Shown piece by piece: positions 4,473 through 17,900 of a DNA stretch of 21,407 nt. The DNA is from Thermoplasmata archaeon (GTDB lineage Archaea; Thermoplasmatota; E2; UBA202; JdFR-43), in the NCBI GenBank assembly GCA_021161135.1, contig JAGHBD010000053.1, positions 1 to 21,407 on the forward strand. Reading direction: 5' to 3'. The notes under the pieces are model-generated. The model did no database searches. It worked only from the letters and a program-made list of their open reading frames with translations, and was not told the DNA's origin. A program made the position numbers and the translations under genes. Within the stretch, counting starts at the first letter, position 1, and the number at the start of each line of letters is the position of its first letter.

Positions 4473-6611
<2,139 letters not shown>

Positions 6612-7742: not shown

Positions 7743-7984
7743 GAAGGGACAAAATAATAGTCATGCTTCTATTCCTTTTTGTGTTATTTATGATTTTCTT
7801 TATTTTTTCACCAGAAATATCTGCTTTCTTTGGCGGACTTGAGCAGGAATATGAATTTCGCCCTCTGCAGGCATTATTCTGGTTTCTCTCCCTCCTTTTC
7901 AAGTTCTTCGGAAACTGGGTATTTTGCACCATTGCATACATGATTGTTGGAGGCATAATATATCTTGCAGGGAGGAGAGATTAA
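7739..7984 (+). CDS. small two-helix membrane protein
   Basis: An 81-residue protein with two hydrophobic segments: residues 6-24 (IIVMLLFLFVLFMIFFIFS) and roughly 43-76, the latter interrupted around FKFFGNW. Both ends are charged (MRRDK... and ...GRRD). No family is recognised. It is a credible gene because it begins in an ATGA overlap with the DUF763 stop, giving translational coupling, and runs exactly to a four-base overlap with the convergent HD gene. Its job, perhaps a membrane partner for the DUF763 protein, is speculation. Confidence 0.65.
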   Translation: MRRDKIIVMLLFLFVLFMIFFIFSPEISAFFGGLEQEYEFRPLQALFWFLSLLFKFFGNWVFCTIAYMIVGGIIYLAGRRD

Positions 7985-8481
7985 AGTGATTTCAGGATAG
8001 AAACAAGCATCGGATGTTTTATATTTTCCTCCTCAAAAAATTCCATCAATTTTTCTTTTCCATATACACCGGCATATTCATATGCCTGCAGAATCATCTC
8101 GAGTTTGTCAATTTCCTGCACAATTTTTGCTTCCTCGCTCTTTCCTTCCATATATTCTCTCCATAGTCTGTAATATTCATCAAAACCATCGAGCAATTCC
8201 TTCATTACCTTTTCCTCCTTCCCTTCCTTTTCCTCCCTTTCCATTTCATAAGGCGTTATATCTCCTATGATTGCTTCCGCCAAGTCATGCAGTAAAGCCA
8301 TTTTAATCATTTTTTCTGTATCGAGGCCCAAAATATCCCCAGCAAGCATTGCGAGAAAGGCGACGCGATAGCTGTGGCATGCCACACTTTCCGGCTTTTC
8401 TACACCAGCTCTTTTCCATCCTTTCCTTTCTATTTCTTTGAGTTTCCCTGCATGTTGAAGAAGCCTAAGGACTTTGTGCAT
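7981..8481 (-). CDS. HD-domain phosphohydrolase, YfbR/HDDC2-like 5'-deoxynucleotidase
   Basis: Predicted metal-dependent phosphohydrolase acting on 5'-nucleoside monophosphates. Counting from MHKVLRLLQH, the HD residues are H36 (ESVACHSYRV), H65-D66 (ALLHDLAEA) and a later Asp in VQEIDKLEMILQA. ERKGWKRAGVEKPESVA matches the GW...PESVA substrate-loop pattern of YfbR/HDDC2 proteins. The 166-residue length suits this family. I place the start at 8481 because an A/T element, tataaaaat at 8499-8507, lies about 22 nt upstream. An in-frame ATG at 8499 is possible. An even longer reading frame extends into the tRNA gene and is not credible. It overlaps the convergent small gene by four bases. Confidence 0.85.
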   Translation of the reverse strand: MHKVLRLLQHAGKLKEIERKGWKRAGVEKPESVACHSYRVAFLAMLAGDILGLDTEKMIKMALLHDLAEAIIGDITPYEMEREEKEGKEEKVMKELLDGFDEYYRLWREYMEGKSEEAKIVQEIDKLEMILQAYEYAGVYGKEKLMEFFEEENIKHPMLVSILKSL

Positions 8482-8516: not shown

Positions 8517-8618
8517 TGCGGGGGGTGGGATTTTCGTGGCTTATGCCATTTCGAACCCACGAAGGCCTGCGCCACAGGGTCCTAAGCCCTGCACCGTTGA
8601 CCGCTTGGCTACCCCCGC
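8517..8618 (-). tRNA. tRNA-Leu (anticodon UAG) with a T-loop intron
   Basis: Read on the minus strand, the acceptor stem GCGGGGG pairs with CCCCCGC (8518-8524). The D-arm has GCC...GGT. The anticodon stem CAGGG/CCCTG encloses the loop CTTAGGA, giving anticodon TAG (Leu, CUN codons). A long variable arm, GGC-GCAG-GCC, makes it a type II tRNA as expected for leucine. The T-stem is GTGGG/CCCAC, but 26 nt separate its strands instead of 7. Removing a 19-nt intron (8531-8549) leaves a perfect TTCGAAT loop, placing the intron between positions 59 and 60. The discriminator base is A; CCA is not encoded. The mature tRNA would be 83 nt before CCA addition. Confidence 0.93.
8531..8549 (-). other. tRNA intron with canonical bulge-helix-bulge motif
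   Basis: In order on the tRNA strand: T-stem GTGGG, central-helix strand TTCG, bulge AAA, intron hairpin TGGC-ATAA-GCCA, central-helix strand CGAA, bulge AAT, T-stem CCCAC. TTCG pairs perfectly with CGAA (4 bp), and both bulges are 3 nt. This is the strict BHB geometry cut by the archaeal splicing endonuclease after the second base of each bulge. The cuts release ATGGCATAAGCCACGAAAA (19 nt). Substrate for tRNA endonuclease and RtcB ligase is expected from family knowledge; splicing itself is not shown. Confidence 0.9.
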
Positions 8619-8633
8619 ATCCCATGTTTATAT

Positions 8634-9674
8634 CTATGGGGCTATTAATTTTTTTGTTATGGGTAAAAAGTTAAAATCTTTGATTATCCTTGCCTTGTTT
8701 AAACTGTACGTTCTTACAAGGGGGGGCGAAGAAATCCATTCCTTTTCCTTCAAACGCTGCATTATCTCCGTTTTGCACATCTTATAAGATTCATAATCTG
8801 TGTGTATGGAAATGGCAACAAATTCGAAGCGGCGGGCAGCAAAAAATATCACGCCAGGGCAAAGAAGGCATTTGAGTTCATCCTTTTCAAAATCTGGCGG
8901 GGAATGAGGATTGAGAAGCACATGATAAAAAGCGAGGATTCTAAAATCAAGTTTTTCAAAACTTGGAATGGCAACCATTCTGATGTAGCCTTCATCAAGA
9001 AACTTTTTCTTCATTCTGCCCACTGTATGGCGTGTTATGCCGAGCATTTCCGCAATTTCTTTTGATGGAGCTCCAGGATACTCAATAATCTTGCACAATA
9101 CTTTTCGCTCCCTTTTTGAAAGTGAGGCATTTTTAATCTGGAAGAAATTTTTTGCATCCTCCTCTGTTTCATCAAGATTAAAGAGGGCTGCAAGAGTTGA
9201 TGAAAAATCGAAAAAGCGATATATCTTGCTTATTTCAAATGGAAAAACGACTTCCTGAGGATACTCATTTTCAAGCAGGCCAAGAGAGCCAAAGGTAAGA
9301 GTTCGTATGTCATTTATTTTTCCTATTGCTGTATAATTTTTGGCAAAACTTAATGAGAAACCTTTATCCTCTTCACCCATTGAAAAGAAAATTTCCTCTG
9401 CTGCCTCAATTTTTTCCTCTGTTATCTCTATTCTTTTTTCTAAAGGTATAACGGGATTAAAATTTGTGTGGATTATTGCCATCAACTCGGCGCCAAAATT
9501 TTGAAGCATTGGTATGGCATAAATTTTGTAATATCCTTCCTCAGCCAGCCTTTTCCTTATAGCTGCCACCGTCGATTGTCTCATACCAAATTTTTCGGCA
9601 AGCTGGCGGTCATTGTCATTTGGAAACTTTACTATGCCATACAATACCTTTTTTTCATAATTTGTTAAATCCAC
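8634..9674 (-). CDS. tandem-duplicated HTH transcriptional regulator
   Basis: An internally duplicated DNA-binding protein of about 346 residues. Each half opens with a winged-helix HTH: DRQLAEKFGMRQSTVAAIRK in the first and SKEIAEMLGITRHTVGRMKK in the second. Each then has an EEGY/DEGY...AIP turn and a second alpha/beta region (AELMAIIHTNFNP and RILAFYHVLLNPH). This resembles archaeal Lrp/MarR-like regulators with a sensor domain after the HTH, doubled in one chain. The effector cannot be told. I prefer a GTG start at 9674 because a TATA-like element (9692-9700) lies about 22 nt upstream. A TTG at 9689 is the alternative and would add five residues. It ends 15 bp from the tRNA 5' end. Confidence 0.75.
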   Translation of the reverse strand: MDLTNYEKKVLYGIVKFPNDNDRQLAEKFGMRQSTVAAIRKRLAEEGYYKIYAIPMLQNFGAELMAIIHTNFNPVIPLEKRIEITEEKIEAAEEIFFSMGEEDKGFSLSFAKNYTAIGKINDIRTLTFGSLGLLENEYPQEVVFPFEISKIYRFFDFSSTLAALFNLDETEEDAKNFFQIKNASLSKRERKVLCKIIEYPGAPSKEIAEMLGITRHTVGRMKKKFLDEGYIRMVAIPSFEKLDFRILAFYHVLLNPHSPPDFEKDELKCLLCPGVIFFAARRFEFVAISIHTDYESYKMCKTEIMQRLKEKEWISSPPLVRTYSLNKARIIKDFNFLPITKKLIAP

Positions 9675-9691
9675 GTGTATAAATGGCAATT

Positions 9692-10826: not shown

Positions 10827-11723
10827 ATGAACCTTTACGAGAAAACATATGAACTTGTGAAGCAGATACCGAGGGGCAAAGTTTCCACTTATGGAGCCAT
10901 TGCAAGAGCTTTGGGTGATGTTATAGCTTCTAGAGCTGTAGGTGTGATGCTGAATCAGAATCCATATAAGGAGGTGCCATGCTATAGAGTGATAAAAAGT
11001 GATGGAAGTCTGGGCGGATATGCTACTGGTATAGAAAAGAAAATAAAGTTGCTTAAAAATGATGGCATTGAAATTATCGATGGCAAGATAGATTTGACAA
11101 AATATCTTTTTGATGATTTTAAGACCGACTATCCATTAAAAAAATTAAGGCAGGAGCAGGAAGAATTGAGGGAGAAAGTTGTCACAGAAGATGATTTTGA
11201 GATAGGCAGCATTGCAGCCATAGATGTTTCTTATACAAAACGCTTTGCCTACGGAGCTTACGTGGAATTTGATAGAGAAGGTAATTTAATAAAAAAGAAG
11301 ATAGTGAAAATGAAAATTTCATTCCCTTACATTCCAACTTATTTGGCATATCGTGAGCTGCCAGTGCTAAATGAATTGATGAAAGATGAAGAGCCCAGCA
11401 TTGTTATGCTCGACGGCAACGGCTTGCTCCATCCTCGCCTTTTTGGCATAGCATGTCATTTTGGTGTGTTGCATGATATTGCTACTATAGGGATAGCAAA
11501 GAAGCTGTTGTGCGGCATGGAAAAAGATGGCTATGTTTTTATAGGCAGGAGAAAGGTTGCAAGGCGATTGGGAAAGATTTTTGTTTCTCCAGGCAACAAA
11601 ATAAGCGTTGATTCAGCATATAAAATAGCAAAAAAATTCATGAAGTACAGCATTCCTGAGCCAGTAAGGCAGGCACACATGCTGGCAAACGAGGCGAGGA
11701 GGAAAGATGCAGTGGAAAATTAA
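10827..11723 (+). CDS. O6-alkylguanine-DNA alkyltransferase / endonuclease V fusion
   Basis: A bifunctional repair protein of 298 residues. Residues 1-90 are the DNA-binding half of O6-alkylguanine-DNA alkyltransferase without the usual N-terminal domain: IPRGKVSTYGAIARALG, SRAVGVML.QNP, then the acceptor cysteine C52 in VPCYRVIKSDGSLGGYATG. The standard motif is PCHR; here His is Tyr. Residues 105-295 are endonuclease V, which cuts near deaminated adenine (hypoxanthine): AIDVSY (D133), YIPTYLAYRELPVL (E177), and VMLDGNGLLHPR (D196, H202). A fusion with this order was characterised in Ferroplasma acidarmanus. The next gene, an AlkA glycosylase, overlaps it by 17 nt, giving an alkylation/deamination repair operon. 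A TATA-like aaactttaattt lies about 24 nt before the ATG. Confidence 0.92.
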   Translation: MNLYEKTYELVKQIPRGKVSTYGAIARALGDVIASRAVGVMLNQNPYKEVPCYRVIKSDGSLGGYATGIEKKIKLLKNDGIEIIDGKIDLTKYLFDDFKTDYPLKKLRQEQEELREKVVTEDDFEIGSIAAIDVSYTKRFAYGAYVEFDREGNLIKKKIVKMKISFPYIPTYLAYRELPVLNELMKDEEPSIVMLDGNGLLHPRLFGIACHFGVLHDIATIGIAKKLLCGMEKDGYVFIGRRKVARRLGKIFVSPGNKISVDSAYKIAKKFMKYSIPEPVRQAHMLANEARRKDAVEN

Positions 11724-12977: not shown

Positions 12978-14312
12978 ATGATTTGTCCCTTGGACTTTCG
13001 TTATGGAAGAGAAGAGATAAAAAGAATTTTTAGCGAAGAATCCCGCCTTTCATACTGGCTTAAGGTTGAGGCAACACTGGCTAAAGCTCATGCTCATGTT
13101 GGTAATATTCCGAAAGAGGCGGCTGAAGAAATAGCATCAAAAGCCAGTTTGCAGTATGTAAAGCTTGAAAGAGTTAAAGAAATTGAAGCGGAAATAAGGC
13201 ATGATGTAATGGCAATGGTTAAGGCTTTAGCCGAGCAATGTGAATACGGCAAATATGTGCATCTTGGAGCAACATCTTACGACATCGTTGATACCGCCAA
13301 TGCCCTTCAAATTATTGATGCATTACATATAATTGAAGAGCAAATTATAGGGCTGATTAAGGCGATATCAAAACTTGCTGAAGAATATAAGGCGACGATA
13401 ATGATTGGCCGCACCCATGGACAGCATGCTTTGCCGATAACTTTTGGCCTGAAAATGGCTGTTTATGCTAAAGAAATGCTTCGCCATTATAGGCGATTGC
13501 AGCAAATTAAGGAGGAGATGGCAGTTGGGAAAATGGCTGGGGCGGTTGGCACTGGCGCTGCCTTCGGCGATAAGTTTTTCGAGATACAGGATTTTGTAAT
13601 GAAGGAATTGGGCTTGAAAGCGGAAATGCCAGCAACGCAAATTGTTGGAAGAGACCGCTATATCGCTCTGTTATCTTTCCTTGCCAACGTTGCCACTTCT
13701 TTGGAAAAATTTGCCACAGAAATTAGAAATTTGCAGAGGAACGAAATTGCGGAGGTGGAGGAATATTTTGAGGAAAAGCAAGTTGGCTCTTCAACAATGC
13801 CTCATAAAAGAAATCCGATAACGTGTGAGCAAATTTGTGGATTGGCGAGAGTGATAAGGAGCAATTTGTTGCCTGCATGGGAAAATGCAGTTCAGTGGCA
13901 TGAGCGTGATTTATGCAATTCATCAGCAGAACGCTTTATAATACCTCATGCCTTAGTCCTAACTGACTGGATATTATTCAAAATGAGAAAAGTTTTTTCA
14001 AGCCTTAAAGTTAATCCAGAAAAAATGGCAGAAAACATAGAGATAAGCAAGGGATTGATATTCACCGAGGCAATTATGATAAAACTCGTCGAAAAAGGAA
14101 TGAGCAGGCAGGAGGCGCACGAAATAATGAGGCAGTGTGCAATGGAAGCGCTGGAAAAGGAAATGCACCTCAAAAACGTTTTGAAGGAAAAGAGAGAAAT
14201 TGTTGAGAAAATAGATGATATCGATGCCCTTTTCAATCCACGCAACTATATTGGCAAAGCAGAAGAAATTGTGGAGATAACTTTAAAAGAAATTGCCAAA
14301 GAGATTCCATAA
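12978..14312 (+). CDS. purB: adenylosuccinate lyase
   Basis: It catalyses two fumarate-releasing steps of purine synthesis: SAICAR to AICAR, and adenylosuccinate to AMP. The fumarase/aspartase superfamily signature GSSTMPHKRNP is at 270-280. The catalytic-base region TIMIGRTHGQHALP (140-153) and the substrate loop LGATSYDIVDT (96-106) are also present. At 444 residues the length is normal for archaeal PurB. It opens MICPLDFRYG, close to the usual (S/D)PLD.RY start. The ATG is preceded by the TATA element shared with the divergent cupin gene, so the mRNA is probably leaderless. Its 3' end overlaps the convergent repeat-protein gene by 30 nt. Confidence 0.95.
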   Translation: MICPLDFRYGREEIKRIFSEESRLSYWLKVEATLAKAHAHVGNIPKEAAEEIASKASLQYVKLERVKEIEAEIRHDVMAMVKALAEQCEYGKYVHLGATSYDIVDTANALQIIDALHIIEEQIIGLIKAISKLAEEYKATIMIGRTHGQHALPITFGLKMAVYAKEMLRHYRRLQQIKEEMAVGKMAGAVGTGAAFGDKFFEIQDFVMKELGLKAEMPATQIVGRDRYIALLSFLANVATSLEKFATEIRNLQRNEIAEVEEYFEEKQVGSSTMPHKRNPITCEQICGLARVIRSNLLPAWENAVQWHERDLCNSSAERFIIPHALVLTDWILFKMRKVFSSLKVNPEKMAENIEISKGLIFTEAIMIKLVEKGMSRQEAHEIMRQCAMEALEKEMHLKNVLKEKREIVEKIDDIDALFNPRNYIGKAEEIVEITLKEIAKEIP

Positions 14313-15686
14313 ATCAATGCCGATCCTCTCTGGAAGCTGAAGTATTTCGTATATATCCTCTGAATCAAAATCCTGCAGGAAGAACGAATATCCACCCCAT
14401 CTCTGACTACCCTGGCTGAAAAGGGAGCTCGAAAACTTGTTTTTTCCATCTCCATCTATCAATACAGCCATTCCGAGCCATGCTGAAGAGGCCTGTGAAA
14501 ACTGTAATGCATGATAGCCATCTTCGCCCAAAAAATCGAAAAGGAAAGCTATGCCCCCTTTTTCTCCATACCCCTGACAGAAACTGCCTGCTTCATAATA
14601 ATCATCCCCAGCCAAATTTATGAAAATGGATATGGAGGTGTGAGGGAAACCATTTGCATATGCCTGTGAATAATCATCTGCAAAAAAAGCATCGTTTCCA
14701 TATAGATCCAGCAGCAAGGATATGCCGCCATCCTCGCTGCATGCCTGTGAGCGATTTTTAGCTTGGTAAATATCATCGCCCTTTATGTCTGCAAGTAAAG
14801 AGAAAGCGTTATTGCTGTAACTCTGAGTGAGACTTCCTCCATCATATATGTCGTTTCCGTCCAAATCAAATAGAAGGGATAGTCCTCCATTCCATGAAGA
14901 GGCTGTTGTTCCTTTATACTTATCGTCTCCTTCCCCATCAACTAAAAAGCAGATTCCTCCTTTGGCATAAGGCGCATTTACATATTCATCGTTTCCATCG
15001 ATATCAAAAGCAAGAGATACGCTTTCATTGGAGAAAAGGGCTTCGTAACTATCATTTCCTTTTAAATCGAGCAGGAAGGAATTATTTCTTTTTTCATATT
15101 TATCATTGCCGCCGAAATCGATAATGAATTTATATTCTCCTCCATAATCCTCGCCCATACTGCTGCCGAGCATTATGGCATCATAAGCATCTGAAACGCT
15201 GTGATCGAGGCTACAATTACTTAAAATATATGCTGCTTTCCTCACATTCTGGCAAATGTGTAAAACTTCATCAATTTGTTCCTGCCTTGAAGTTGCATCT
15301 ATGGCATGAGCGTATGAAAGCAGGAGGAGAGAAATTGCCCTAATCTGCTCACCGCTGAAGGATGAATTTAATTCTGCCATGAATGATGCAATACTTTCGT
15401 TTGTATATGAAATTCCTTCTGCCTCATAAAATTCTTTCATTGCATCTTCCAGAAACAGATCTTCATTGAGAAAATAATCTATGTTATCTGTTTCAGCGAC
15501 AATCTCCTCCATTAAGTCAGATGGTTTGAGGAATTTCATGGTAGCAACTTTTTTTTGTAAAGCAAGGACAAAGCCAAAAACATCTTCTTTGGTGGGTATG
15601 GTTTTTGCATTAAAACCCCCCTCTCTTGACTGATTCAATGGCATTAAAAGTAGTATAATGATAGCCACCACAAGCATTTTTTTCAT
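14283..15686 (-). CDS. secreted protein with eleven G-N/D-D-x-Y repeats
   Basis: A 467-residue protein with an N-terminal signal peptide (MKKMLVVAIIILLLMPLNQS). Residues 30-175 are a mostly helical region with many acidic residues. Residues 186-450 contain about eleven repeats of the form hydrophobic strand-D-x-x-G-(N/D)-D-x-Y, for example SLLFDLDGNDIYDG and SLLADIKGDDIYQA. G-N-D positions are near 193, 210, 231, 253, 277, 303, 330, 360, 387, 413 and 442. The acidic turns recall calcium-binding beta-roll repeats, but the unit is longer than RTX nonapeptides. From the fifth unit on, most units carry an SQ or TQ/CQ motif. It is probably an exported or surface protein. A TATA box at 15708-15716 lies about 26 nt upstream. 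No specific family is recognised. Confidence 0.82.
   Translation of the reverse strand: MKKMLVVAIIILLLMPLNQSREGGFNAKTIPTKEDVFGFVLALQKKVATMKFLKPSDLMEEIVAETDNIDYFLNEDLFLEDAMKEFYEAEGISYTNESIASFMAELNSSFSGEQIRAISLLLLSYAHAIDATSRQEQIDEVLHICQNVRKAAYILSNCSLDHSVSDAYDAIMLGSSMGEDYGGEYKFIIDFGGNDKYEKRNNSFLLDLKGNDSYEALFSNESVSLAFDIDGNDEYVNAPYAKGGICFLVDGEGDDKYKGTTASSWNGGLSLLFDLDGNDIYDGGSLTQSYSNNAFSLLADIKGDDIYQAKNRSQACSEDGGISLLLDLYGNDAFFADDYSQAYANGFPHTSISIFINLAGDDYYEAGSFCQGYGEKGGIAFLFDFLGEDGYHALQFSQASSAWLGMAVLIDGDGKNKFSSSLFSQGSQRWGGYSFFLQDFDSEDIYEILQLPERIGIDLWNLFGNFF
14327..15131 (-). repeat. tandem GND-type protein repeats within the secreted protein
   Basis: The DNA encodes about eleven diverged repeat units of 17-30 codons, each centred on G-(N/D/E)-(D/N)-x-(Y/F) after a short hydrophobic strand. 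The bases themselves are not near-identical between units, so this is an old, diverged repeat rather than a recent tandem duplication. Confidence 0.75.
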
Positions 15687-16631: not shown

Positions 16632-17900
16632 ATGGAAAAAGAGATAGGTATAGAGGTATTTGTTACGAAGGCGAGAGGCGTAGGAGGCAAGATAAAGAAA
16701 GAGCCAGAAGATTTTATTGTTGAAGAAGTTTCCATTTATCCTCCGCCCTCCAATGGAAGATATGTTATAGCAAGAGTAAAGGCAAGAAACTGGGAAATGA
16801 ACCGTCTCATAGAAAAGCTGGCCTACAGCCTCAGAATTTCACCAAATTCAATAGGATATGCAGGAATAAAGGACAAGAGAGCAATAACCACACAAATCAT
16901 GTCATTTCCAGTAAGCATTGAGAAGCTAAAAAATGTAAAAATACCAGATGTTGAAATCGATATTTTGTATAAATCCTCCAAGCCCATTTATTCTGGTAAG
17001 CTCATAGGAAACAGATTCCATATTGTAATAAGGGATATCGAGGCGGGAGAAGAAGATGTTAAGAAAGTGATGCATGAAATAGAAAAACTTGCTTTAATGC
17101 CAAATTTTTTCGGCGTTCAGCGATTTGGCATTGCTAGGCCTATAACGCATCTGGTTGGCAAATATATTCTCAAAAATGATTTTGAGAGAGCTGTGATGAC
17201 TTATATAGCTCATCCAATTAAAGGGGAAGATGAGGAAAGTTATGAGGCTAGGAAATTTTTAGAGGAAACAAGAGATTTTGAGGAAGCTCTAAAACTTTAC
17301 CCAAAAAAGCTTGTTTTTGAGAGGAGAATAATAGAGCATCTTGCTCTCCATCCCAATGAATGGAAAGAAGCTCTGCTTAAATTACCGAAAAATTTAGTTA
17401 GAATATTTCTCCATGCTTACCAATCATATTTATTCAACAAAATTTTATCCAGAAGAATAAAAAAAGGATTACCTCTCAGTGAGGCGGTAGAAGGGGATAT
17501 CGTTATTCTATGGGAAAATGAAATGGTTATACAGAGCAATGAAGGTATAAAAGTTAATAAAGGCAACAAAGAAAAAATCAATAAGCAGATTAAAAGAGAG
17601 AAATGTTTTCCATCCGCCGCCATTTATGGCTACGATTTGCTTAAAGCAGAGGGAGAAATGGGAGAGATAGAAGAGGAAATTGCGAGAGAGGAAGGAATAA
17701 ATGAGGAAGAATTCAAAATGCCGCATATGCCAGAGTTTGCATGTAAGGGGATGAGACGGGTAATTGCTGTGCCATTGAAAAATATTAAATGGGAATTTGA
17801 TGACAAAAATTTATATCTATCCTTTTTCCTGCCAAAAGGCTGCTATGCCACCTCGCTGCTGCGGGAGATAATGAAGGCGGAAGATATTTTCAGCTACTGA
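16632..17900 (+). CDS. truD: tRNA pseudouridine synthase D
   Basis: TruD makes pseudouridine 13 in the D-arm of tRNAs. The motif SIGYAGIKDKRAITTQ contains the catalytic aspartate D81. GGKIKKEPEDFIVEEV near residues 18-33 is the usual TruD N-terminal motif, and PNFFGVQRFG (157-166) is the conserved RNA-contacting motif. The archaeal-type insertion (TRUD domain) fills the middle, giving 422 residues. It is the third gene of the csl4-rpoL-truD operon and ends with an 11-nt convergent overlap with the HTH regulator gene. Confidence 0.93.
   Translation: MEKEIGIEVFVTKARGVGGKIKKEPEDFIVEEVSIYPPPSNGRYVIARVKARNWEMNRLIEKLAYSLRISPNSIGYAGIKDKRAITTQIMSFPVSIEKLKNVKIPDVEIDILYKSSKPIYSGKLIGNRFHIVIRDIEAGEEDVKKVMHEIEKLALMPNFFGVQRFGIARPITHLVGKYILKNDFERAVMTYIAHPIKGEDEESYEARKFLEETRDFEEALKLYPKKLVFERRIIEHLALHPNEWKEALLKLPKNLVRIFLHAYQSYLFNKILSRRIKKGLPLSEAVEGDIVILWENEMVIQSNEGIKVNKGNKEKINKQIKREKCFPSAAIYGYDLLKAEGEMGEIEEEIAREEGINEEEFKMPHMPEFACKGMRRVIAVPLKNIKWEFDDKNLYLSFFLPKGCYATSLLREIMKAEDIFSY

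Follow-up and report, generated by a model that had tools for sequence, protein, structure and literature searches.

The window, a stretch of 21,407 nt from a Thermoplasmata archaeon, carries on its minus strand (8618-8517) a gene for tRNA-Leu(UAG) with an acceptor stem of 7 bp, the anticodon TAG and the long variable arm of a type II tRNA. Its T-stem, GTGGG/CCCAC, encloses a loop of 26 nt instead of the usual 7 nt. Judged from its sequence, this is very probably a functional gene with a bulge-helix-bulge (BHB) intron at position 59/60, which belongs to a set of T-loop introns that extends over the order and would be spliced by a splicing endonuclease (EndA) of the alpha2 type together with RtcB.

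Structure of the Interrupted tRNA-Leu(UAG) Gene

As the initial annotation had proposed, the removal of 19 nt (8531-8549) restores the T-loop TTCGAAT, and the resulting mature tRNA has a length of 83 nt. The gene (8517-8618, minus strand, as are all parts named here) is thereby divided into a 5' exon of 69 nt (8550-8618), which extends from the 5' strand of the acceptor stem to A59, and a 3' exon of 14 nt (8517-8530), which comprises T60, the 3' strands of the T-stem and the acceptor stem and the discriminator base A73. The intron is missing from the tRNA-Leu(UAG) gene of a related genome, G010. That uninterrupted gene is identical to the 69 nt of the 5' exon and, altogether, to the predicted spliced product over all 83 nt.

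The minimum free energy (MFE) fold of the 102-nt gene revealed a strict 3/4/3 BHB motif, i.e., two bulges of 3 nt around a helix of 4 bp, with helices, bulges and hairpin as they had been drawn in the initial annotation. The outer helix is formed by the T-stem strand GTGGG (8556-8560) and 8525-8529, and in the central helix the exon bases TTCG (positions 54-57, 8552-8555) pair with CGAA of the intron (8533-8536). The 5' bulge AAA (8549-8551) consists of A58, A59 and the first intron base, the 3' bulge is AAT (8530-8532), and the inner hairpin is TGGC-ATAA-GCCA (8537-8548), of which the two congeners G001 and G002 keep the pairs with a changed loop. The BHB rule places the cuts in the two bulges, which would be at 8550/8549 and 8531/8530. 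The fold has an energy of -50.9 kcal/mol, compared to a mean of -38.6 kcal/mol for 200 shuffled sequences (z -3.4), and the 34-nt motif stretch occurs only once in the window at up to three mismatches (0.00 expected, 100 shuffles). Excision in the registers 57/58, 58/59 and 59/60 would yield the identical product; 59/60 was chosen because only this register fits the 3-4-3 geometry.

In the unspliced window ARAGORN did not call a tRNA anywhere, and it recognized a tRNA-Leu(tag) only once the insert had been removed. The Rfam tRNA model scored the unspliced gene with 26.7 bits, which is below the cut-off of 29. The expectation that standard finders may miss this gene was thus correct for these two tools.

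According to the proposed mechanism, pairing of CGAA at the 3' end of the intron with TTCG of the T-loop exon would create the two 3-nt bulges around the 4-bp helix, a fused EndA of the alpha2 type would make one cut per bulge, and ligation of the exons by RtcB would yield a normal 83-nt tRNA. Splicing, including cuts and ligation, is thus predicted from the motif and the gene content.

Functionality of the Gene

The source genome (1.35 Mb, 175 contigs, 87% complete) was found to contain 35 tRNA genes, namely 33 Rfam matches, the window gene and a gene for tRNA-Arg(UCG). ARAGORN called all 33 Rfam matches as tRNAs, but by our reading two names were wrong, i.e., L025 (called Phe) and L040 (called Thr) were read as Thr(CGU) and Asp(GUC). 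The leucine tRNAs found have the anticodons CAA, GAG, CAG and UAA, in addition to the interrupted UAG. An intact tRNA-Leu(UAG) elsewhere, which according to the initial annotation would make the window copy, if silent, a pseudogene, was not found among the 35 tRNA genes of this 87% complete assembly, and in a DNA search with the window gene the runner-up within the genome was the Leu(CAG) gene. By the usual decoding rules CTA codons need a UAG anticodon, and CTA makes up 29 of the 5566 codons in 15 open reading frames (ORFs) of the window chosen by us.

The gene was also compared with its counterparts in related genomes. In G001 and G002 only four of the 102 positions differ from the window copy, and all four lie within the intron: one is the first intron base, in the bulge, and the other three are in the inner loop. 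All 83 exon positions are unchanged. The tRNA-Leu(UAG) intron of a further genome, G006, also has 19 nt and the same inner helix; its central helix would include a possible G-U wobble and is left open in the MFE fold.

These results bear on the possibility that a chance insertion of 19 nt has destroyed the T-loop and that another tRNA does the work. The rejection of the unspliced gene by ARAGORN and Rfam and the incompleteness of the genome would be in accord with such a pseudogene. However, the gene is the only tRNA-Leu(UAG) gene found, it has a strict BHB motif, its exons are constant in the two congeners while the intron has changed at unpaired bases only, and in G001 and G002 five and six other tRNA genes, respectively, have an insert at this site. 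A pseudogene is, therefore, very improbable.

Even less credible is that the mature tRNA keeps the insert and thus has a larger T-loop. Independent folding of the inner hairpin is conceivable; nothing speaks directly for retention. The T-loop is near-invariant and is needed for the elbow of the tRNA, 13 of the 20 tRNA-Leu(UAG) loci of the order lack the insert, its ends fit BHB cleavage, and genes for EndA and RtcB are present.

T-Loop Introns in the Order

The genome of the window (G000) and 98 relatives were searched with the pattern GGTTCRAAN{6,36}GRAAATCC. The order is represented by 22 Thermoplasmatota genomes (G000-G021, including that of the window), in which 79 matches were found, compared to one match of the reversed control. 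Two of the 79 were dropped, one without a tRNA around it (G004:C11) and one in a 3' tRNA fragment (G004:C4, near 38846). The remaining 77 are tRNA genes with a T-loop intron; they occur in 19 of the 22 genomes and represent 20 anticodons and 12 amino acids. The introns are 13-41 nt long, with a median of 30 nt. No tRNA gene with this pattern was found in G009, G014 and G015.

After splicing in silico ARAGORN called all 77 genes, compared to 15 before. Four genes with two introns (G001:C140, G002:C41, G017:C7 and G007:C43) were misnamed by ARAGORN and were renamed by eye. The search pattern fixes two of the five T-stem pairs, or three in the scan of named species described below, so that the T-stem is a weak check, and the evidence lies mainly in the acceptor pairing and in what ARAGORN called. 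The number of 77 is a lower bound, because the patterns fix GG/CC beside the loop and tRNAs with other pairs escape. For non-canonical introns, the survey covered T-loop sites only.

The window's genome has four T-loop introns, in the genes for Leu(UAG), Lys(UUU), His(GUG) and Arg(UCG). Together with five anticodon-loop introns called by ARAGORN, this makes nine interrupted genes among the 35 tRNA genes found. A T-loop intron and an anticodon-loop intron, the latter again according to ARAGORN, are combined in seven genes of the order. No description of T-loop introns in this Thermoplasmatota lineage was found in the open-licence literature.

An additional observation concerns G004:C4, in which the 3' half of a tRNA-Arg(CCU) gene, including the intron, is repeated at a distance of about 22 kb (near 16831 and 38846; L107 and L253). 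This arrangement resembles the termini of an element that has inserted itself into a tRNA gene.

Repeated Change at the Leu(UAG) Locus

Directly upstream of the tRNA gene lies a gene for a winged-HTH protein (8634-9689, minus strand), which was used as a syntenic marker. According to tblastn it adjoins the 5' side of the tRNA gene in 19 of the 20 tRNA-Leu(UAG) loci of the order, the exception being G018, and because it flanks each of the 19 they were regarded as orthologous sites. The intron is present in seven of the 20 loci (G000, G001, G002, G006, G007, G008 and G013) and lacking in 13. A second interrupted copy in G008 was kept out of the 20 loci; the two tRNA-Leu(UAG) genes of this genome (G008:C171 and G008:C7; L051 and L105) have T-loop introns of 33 nt that differ slightly in sequence.

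When mapped onto a 19-row tree of the HTH protein, in which 3 of 16 inner branches are open, the presence of the intron requires five changes, and at least three of them are forced by well-supported branches. Shuffled labels needed 6.0 changes on average, and 129 of 500 shuffles were as low as the observed five, so there is no extra clustering. This shows that the presence of the Leu(UAG) intron has changed repeatedly, irrespective of whether by gain or by loss.

Recurrence and Origin of the Introns

Identical or very similar introns were found in different tRNA genes of the same genome. In G011 an identical intron of 13 nt is present in Ala(CGC) and Leu(CAG), and in G013 one of 16 nt is shared by Arg(UCU) and Gln(CUG). 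The 34-nt introns of Thr(CGU) and Ala(CGC) differ by three mismatches in G001 and by one in G002, and G008 has near-identical introns within Arg isodecoders. Inspection by eye also revealed two recurring hairpins: TGCAAC in introns of Cys, His, Arg, Lys and Glu tRNA genes from two families, and the TGGC hairpin of the window intron in the Lys(UUU) introns of both G004 and G011. The window's own genome, with its four T-loop introns, showed no sharing of introns between tRNAs.

The recurrence suggests that T-loop introns move easily between tRNA genes, because the exon half of the motif is already present as the near-invariant TTCRAA of the T-loop; nearly any tRNA would accommodate an intron whose 3' end is approximately CGAAAA. 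We infer both the movement and its mode from the sequences. The initial annotation had considered a spread of introns into this lineage. A spread within the lineage is supported by the recurrence across isotypes in G001, G002, G011 and G013, and is the better description.

Two other origins were weighed. The set of introns might be ancestral to the order and might have been lost many times, without gain by movement between tRNAs. The five unclustered changes on the HTH tree would fit losses as well as gains, and some introns are common to one isotype across genera, e.g., the Leu(UAG) intron with the TGGC hairpin in G000-G002 and G006. On the other hand, identical or near-identical introns were found in different isotypes within G001, G002, G011 and G013, and in G007 (37 nt), G008 (33 nt) and G013 (14 nt) the Leu(UAG) intron is unlike that of G000 in length and sequence. 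An ancestral set thus has some plausibility, but is the less likely explanation. Alternatively, the intron or the whole tRNA gene could have been acquired horizontally from another archaeal group, and 59/60 introns with the same exon half do exist in records of Asgard, DPANN, TACK and other Thermoplasmatota. Yet the same HTH gene lies beside the tRNA gene in nearly all loci, and the nearest matches in the 99 genomes searched belong to the same genus and family, so that such a transfer is improbable.

The Splicing Enzymes

A single EndA ORF was found in the window's genome. It encodes 340 aa with two PF01974 and two PF02778 stretches, and its residues 9-324 match the Archaeoglobus EndA structures 1r0v and 2gjw. 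The best match in the PDB was 5x89, which we take to be the Methanopyrus enzyme and which scored slightly better than Archaeoglobus EndA. The protein carries the conserved Y/H/K set with its presumed role, and a gene for RtcB is also present. A separate gene for a second EndA subunit was not found in this genome, and we infer from the fused gene that EndA forms an alpha2 homodimer. CSL and ASL loops, extra loops with a conserved lysine beside the active site, are a feature of enzymes with broad specificity. Compared to Archaeoglobus EndA, no CSL/ASL-like insert was seen between F-x-G and L-S-L, presumably the place of these loops, in an alignment that contained no loop-bearing sequence. As to the type of enzyme, which the initial annotation had suggested to check, the only EndA gene found encodes one fused chain of the alpha2 type without an evident insert of this kind.

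EndA was sought with the Pfam model in 23 genomes (18 matched) and by protein search in eight (two matched). Of the 22 genomes of the order, 16 were found to have such a single fused gene, without an evident loop of the broad-specificity kind (15 by the Pfam model, G016 by protein search); in G020 the fused gene is present twice on one contig. These searches did not reveal EndA in G007, G013, G015, G018, G019 and G021. As a separate observation, G019 also has at least one anticodon-loop intron according to ARAGORN; its EndA gene may be in an assembly gap, or its enzyme may be of an unrecognised kind.

Strict and Relaxed Motifs

The window intron had been taken to suggest an endonuclease with a broad tolerance for positions. 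This was not confirmed: because its motif is strict, the intron demands nothing unusual of an alpha2 enzyme, and the chain found lacks an evident CSL/ASL-like insert. The idea returns in another form, because the motifs of the order's remaining T-loop introns mostly appear to be relaxed. Strict pairing, defined as four central pairs and at least three inner pairs, is possible for 14 of the 77 introns, and by this criterion of ours 63 cannot form the strict motif. Just three central pairs are present in 20 of the 77, and 13 have a length of up to 17 nt; these classes may overlap. By MFE only seven of 78 (the fragment included, the 3' T-stem idealised as perfect complement) were strict, and this count is low since the MFE fold often prefers open loops, even in the 19-nt Leu(UAG) intron of G006.

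The relaxed introns would ask something unusual of an alpha2 enzyme if the view holds that these enzymes have a narrow specificity (PMC6379350, PMC12397907). Homodimers are also credited with the cutting of motifs similar to bulge-helix-loop (BHL) motifs (PMC8707768), and Archaeoglobus EndA is reported to excise a BHL intron located at 37/38 when the substrate is full-length pre-tRNA (PMC6379350).

Several points weigh against the reading as a whole. With 87% completeness and 175 contigs, a second tRNA-Leu(UAG) gene could sit in a gap. At 13 and 16 nt, the identical shared introns are too short to be very informative, and they may be convergent. Five of the six genomes in which EndA was not found carry T-loop introns, among them G019 (99% complete) and G013 (94%) with four each. 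Finally, the single fused gene is the basis of the assignment as a putative homodimer, and the best match of this gene is the presumed Methanopyrus structure. For Methanopyrus, a heterotetrameric EndA without special loops is described (PMC6379350).

T-Loop Introns beyond the Order

Among 389 genomes of the phylum, at least 136 match the T-loop intron pattern at least once; the reversed control also matches occasionally. In G096, which belongs to another family of the phylum and was excluded from the counts of the order, four matches were verified as tRNA introns, and three loci (L285, L286 and L288) have similar T-loop introns of 36-38 nt in Glu(CUC), Asp(GUC) and Arg(CCU). G310 (family f46, same phylum) has ten pattern matches, five forward and five reverse, and no control matches, which exceeds every genome of the window's order.

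In addition, genomes of named species were scanned for GGGTTCGAAN{8,28}CGAAAATCCC, which resulted in at least 119 loci. A locus was accepted when it had a T-stem, no intact T-arm and, in addition, acceptor pairing or an ARAGORN call. The groups were assigned by us from the record titles, the units are loci and not species, and, with its fixed letters, the scan is no census. Among the loci listed, 80 of the 87 from archaea were accepted as T-loop introns, compared to one of 32 bacterial loci. The passing loci among those listed are 24/24 for Thermoplasmatota with Methanomassiliicoccales, 21/24 for Asgard, 20/23 for DPANN, 3/3 for TACK, 10/11 for unspecified or other Euryarchaeota and 2/2 for unspecified archaea. 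The statement that T-loop introns are mainly reported from Thermoproteales was, therefore, too narrow, as 59/60 introns span several archaeal groups among the loci listed. The sole passing bacterial locus listed, L120 (Pseudothermotoga sp. RSWP20 record), may be due to chance or to a mis-binned archaeal contig.

Comparison with Known Systems

Position 59/60 is listed among the non-canonical sites of archaeal BHB tRNA introns (PMC4090602), with which the window intron shares the motif, the position and the presumed EndA/RtcB route. Euryarchaeal introns are described as single BHB introns at the canonical position (PMC4090602), and Euryarchaeota with alpha2 or alpha4 enzymes likewise as having single introns at canonical sites (PMC4090602, PMC6379350). 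In contrast, the T-loop is a common intron site in the euryarchaeal order studied here. Non-canonical introns have precedents in a few thermophilic methanogens: three euryarchaeal species are reported to have them (PMC3218864), and Methanopyrus and Methanothermobacter are listed with multiple-intron tRNAs (PMC4033280).

Transposing introns of the Thermoproteales type likewise recur, with high similarity, between different isodecoder tRNAs within a lineage (PMC4090602). They differ in that EndA is heterotetrameric there and of the alpha2 type here; in the window's genome one fused gene was the only EndA gene found. The Asgard groups Atabeyarchaeia and Freyarchaeia are also known from metagenomes and have many non-canonical tRNA introns; 92-95% of their tRNA genes are interrupted (PMC11291895), compared to nine of the 35 found in the window's genome. 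The permuted tRNAs of Thermofilum pendens have the same T-loop join at 59/60, but their halves are swapped (PMC3218864), while the window gene is colinear.

Neighbouring Genes in the Window

Directly downstream of the tRNA gene lies a gene for an HD-domain protein (HD_3/YfbR-like; 7981-8481, minus strand). The start at 8481 is our reading, because an ORF with the mechanically assigned start at 8625 would extend over the tRNA gene, and that start is unlikely to be the true one. Three further genes were noted. A bacterial-type NAD-dependent DNA ligase with a BRCT domain (4473-6611, plus strand) directly follows a replication factor C subunit-like gene. One ORF (10827-11723, plus strand) fuses the DNA-binding domain of 6-O-methylguanine DNA methyltransferase to endonuclease V, a fusion that also occurs in Ferroplasma. 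A secreted-looking ORF (14283-15686, minus strand) contains, by eye, many repeats of the GND-x-Y type.

Implications for Archaeal tRNA Introns

Introns at 59/60 and intron transposition are already known, mainly from Crenarchaeota, and it is the setting that is unexpected, i.e., a euryarchaeal order with EndA of the alpha2 type in which 59/60 introns have multiplied and have repeatedly changed. No description of a proliferation of T-loop introns in a euryarchaeal order with alpha2 enzymes was found in the open-licence literature. One practical consequence is that interrupted genes are lost by common tools; in unspliced form, ARAGORN called 15 of the 77.

As a tentative generalization, which we consider to be about as open to doubt as to acceptance, with doubt slightly prevailing, mobile tRNA introns may land at 59/60 generally, throughout the archaea, by virtue of TTCRAA; in the order described here these introns may have multiplied and may still be moving, many of them relaxed, under an alpha2 EndA without the loops thought to be necessary. 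Reviews tie non-canonical or relaxed introns to EndA of the heterotetrameric or epsilon2 type (PMC4090602, PMC6379350). If the generalization is true, enzyme architecture and intron load would be uncoupled. An order in which the EndA genes found are only of the alpha2 type and 63 of 77 T-loop introns are non-strict makes the architecture rule directly testable.
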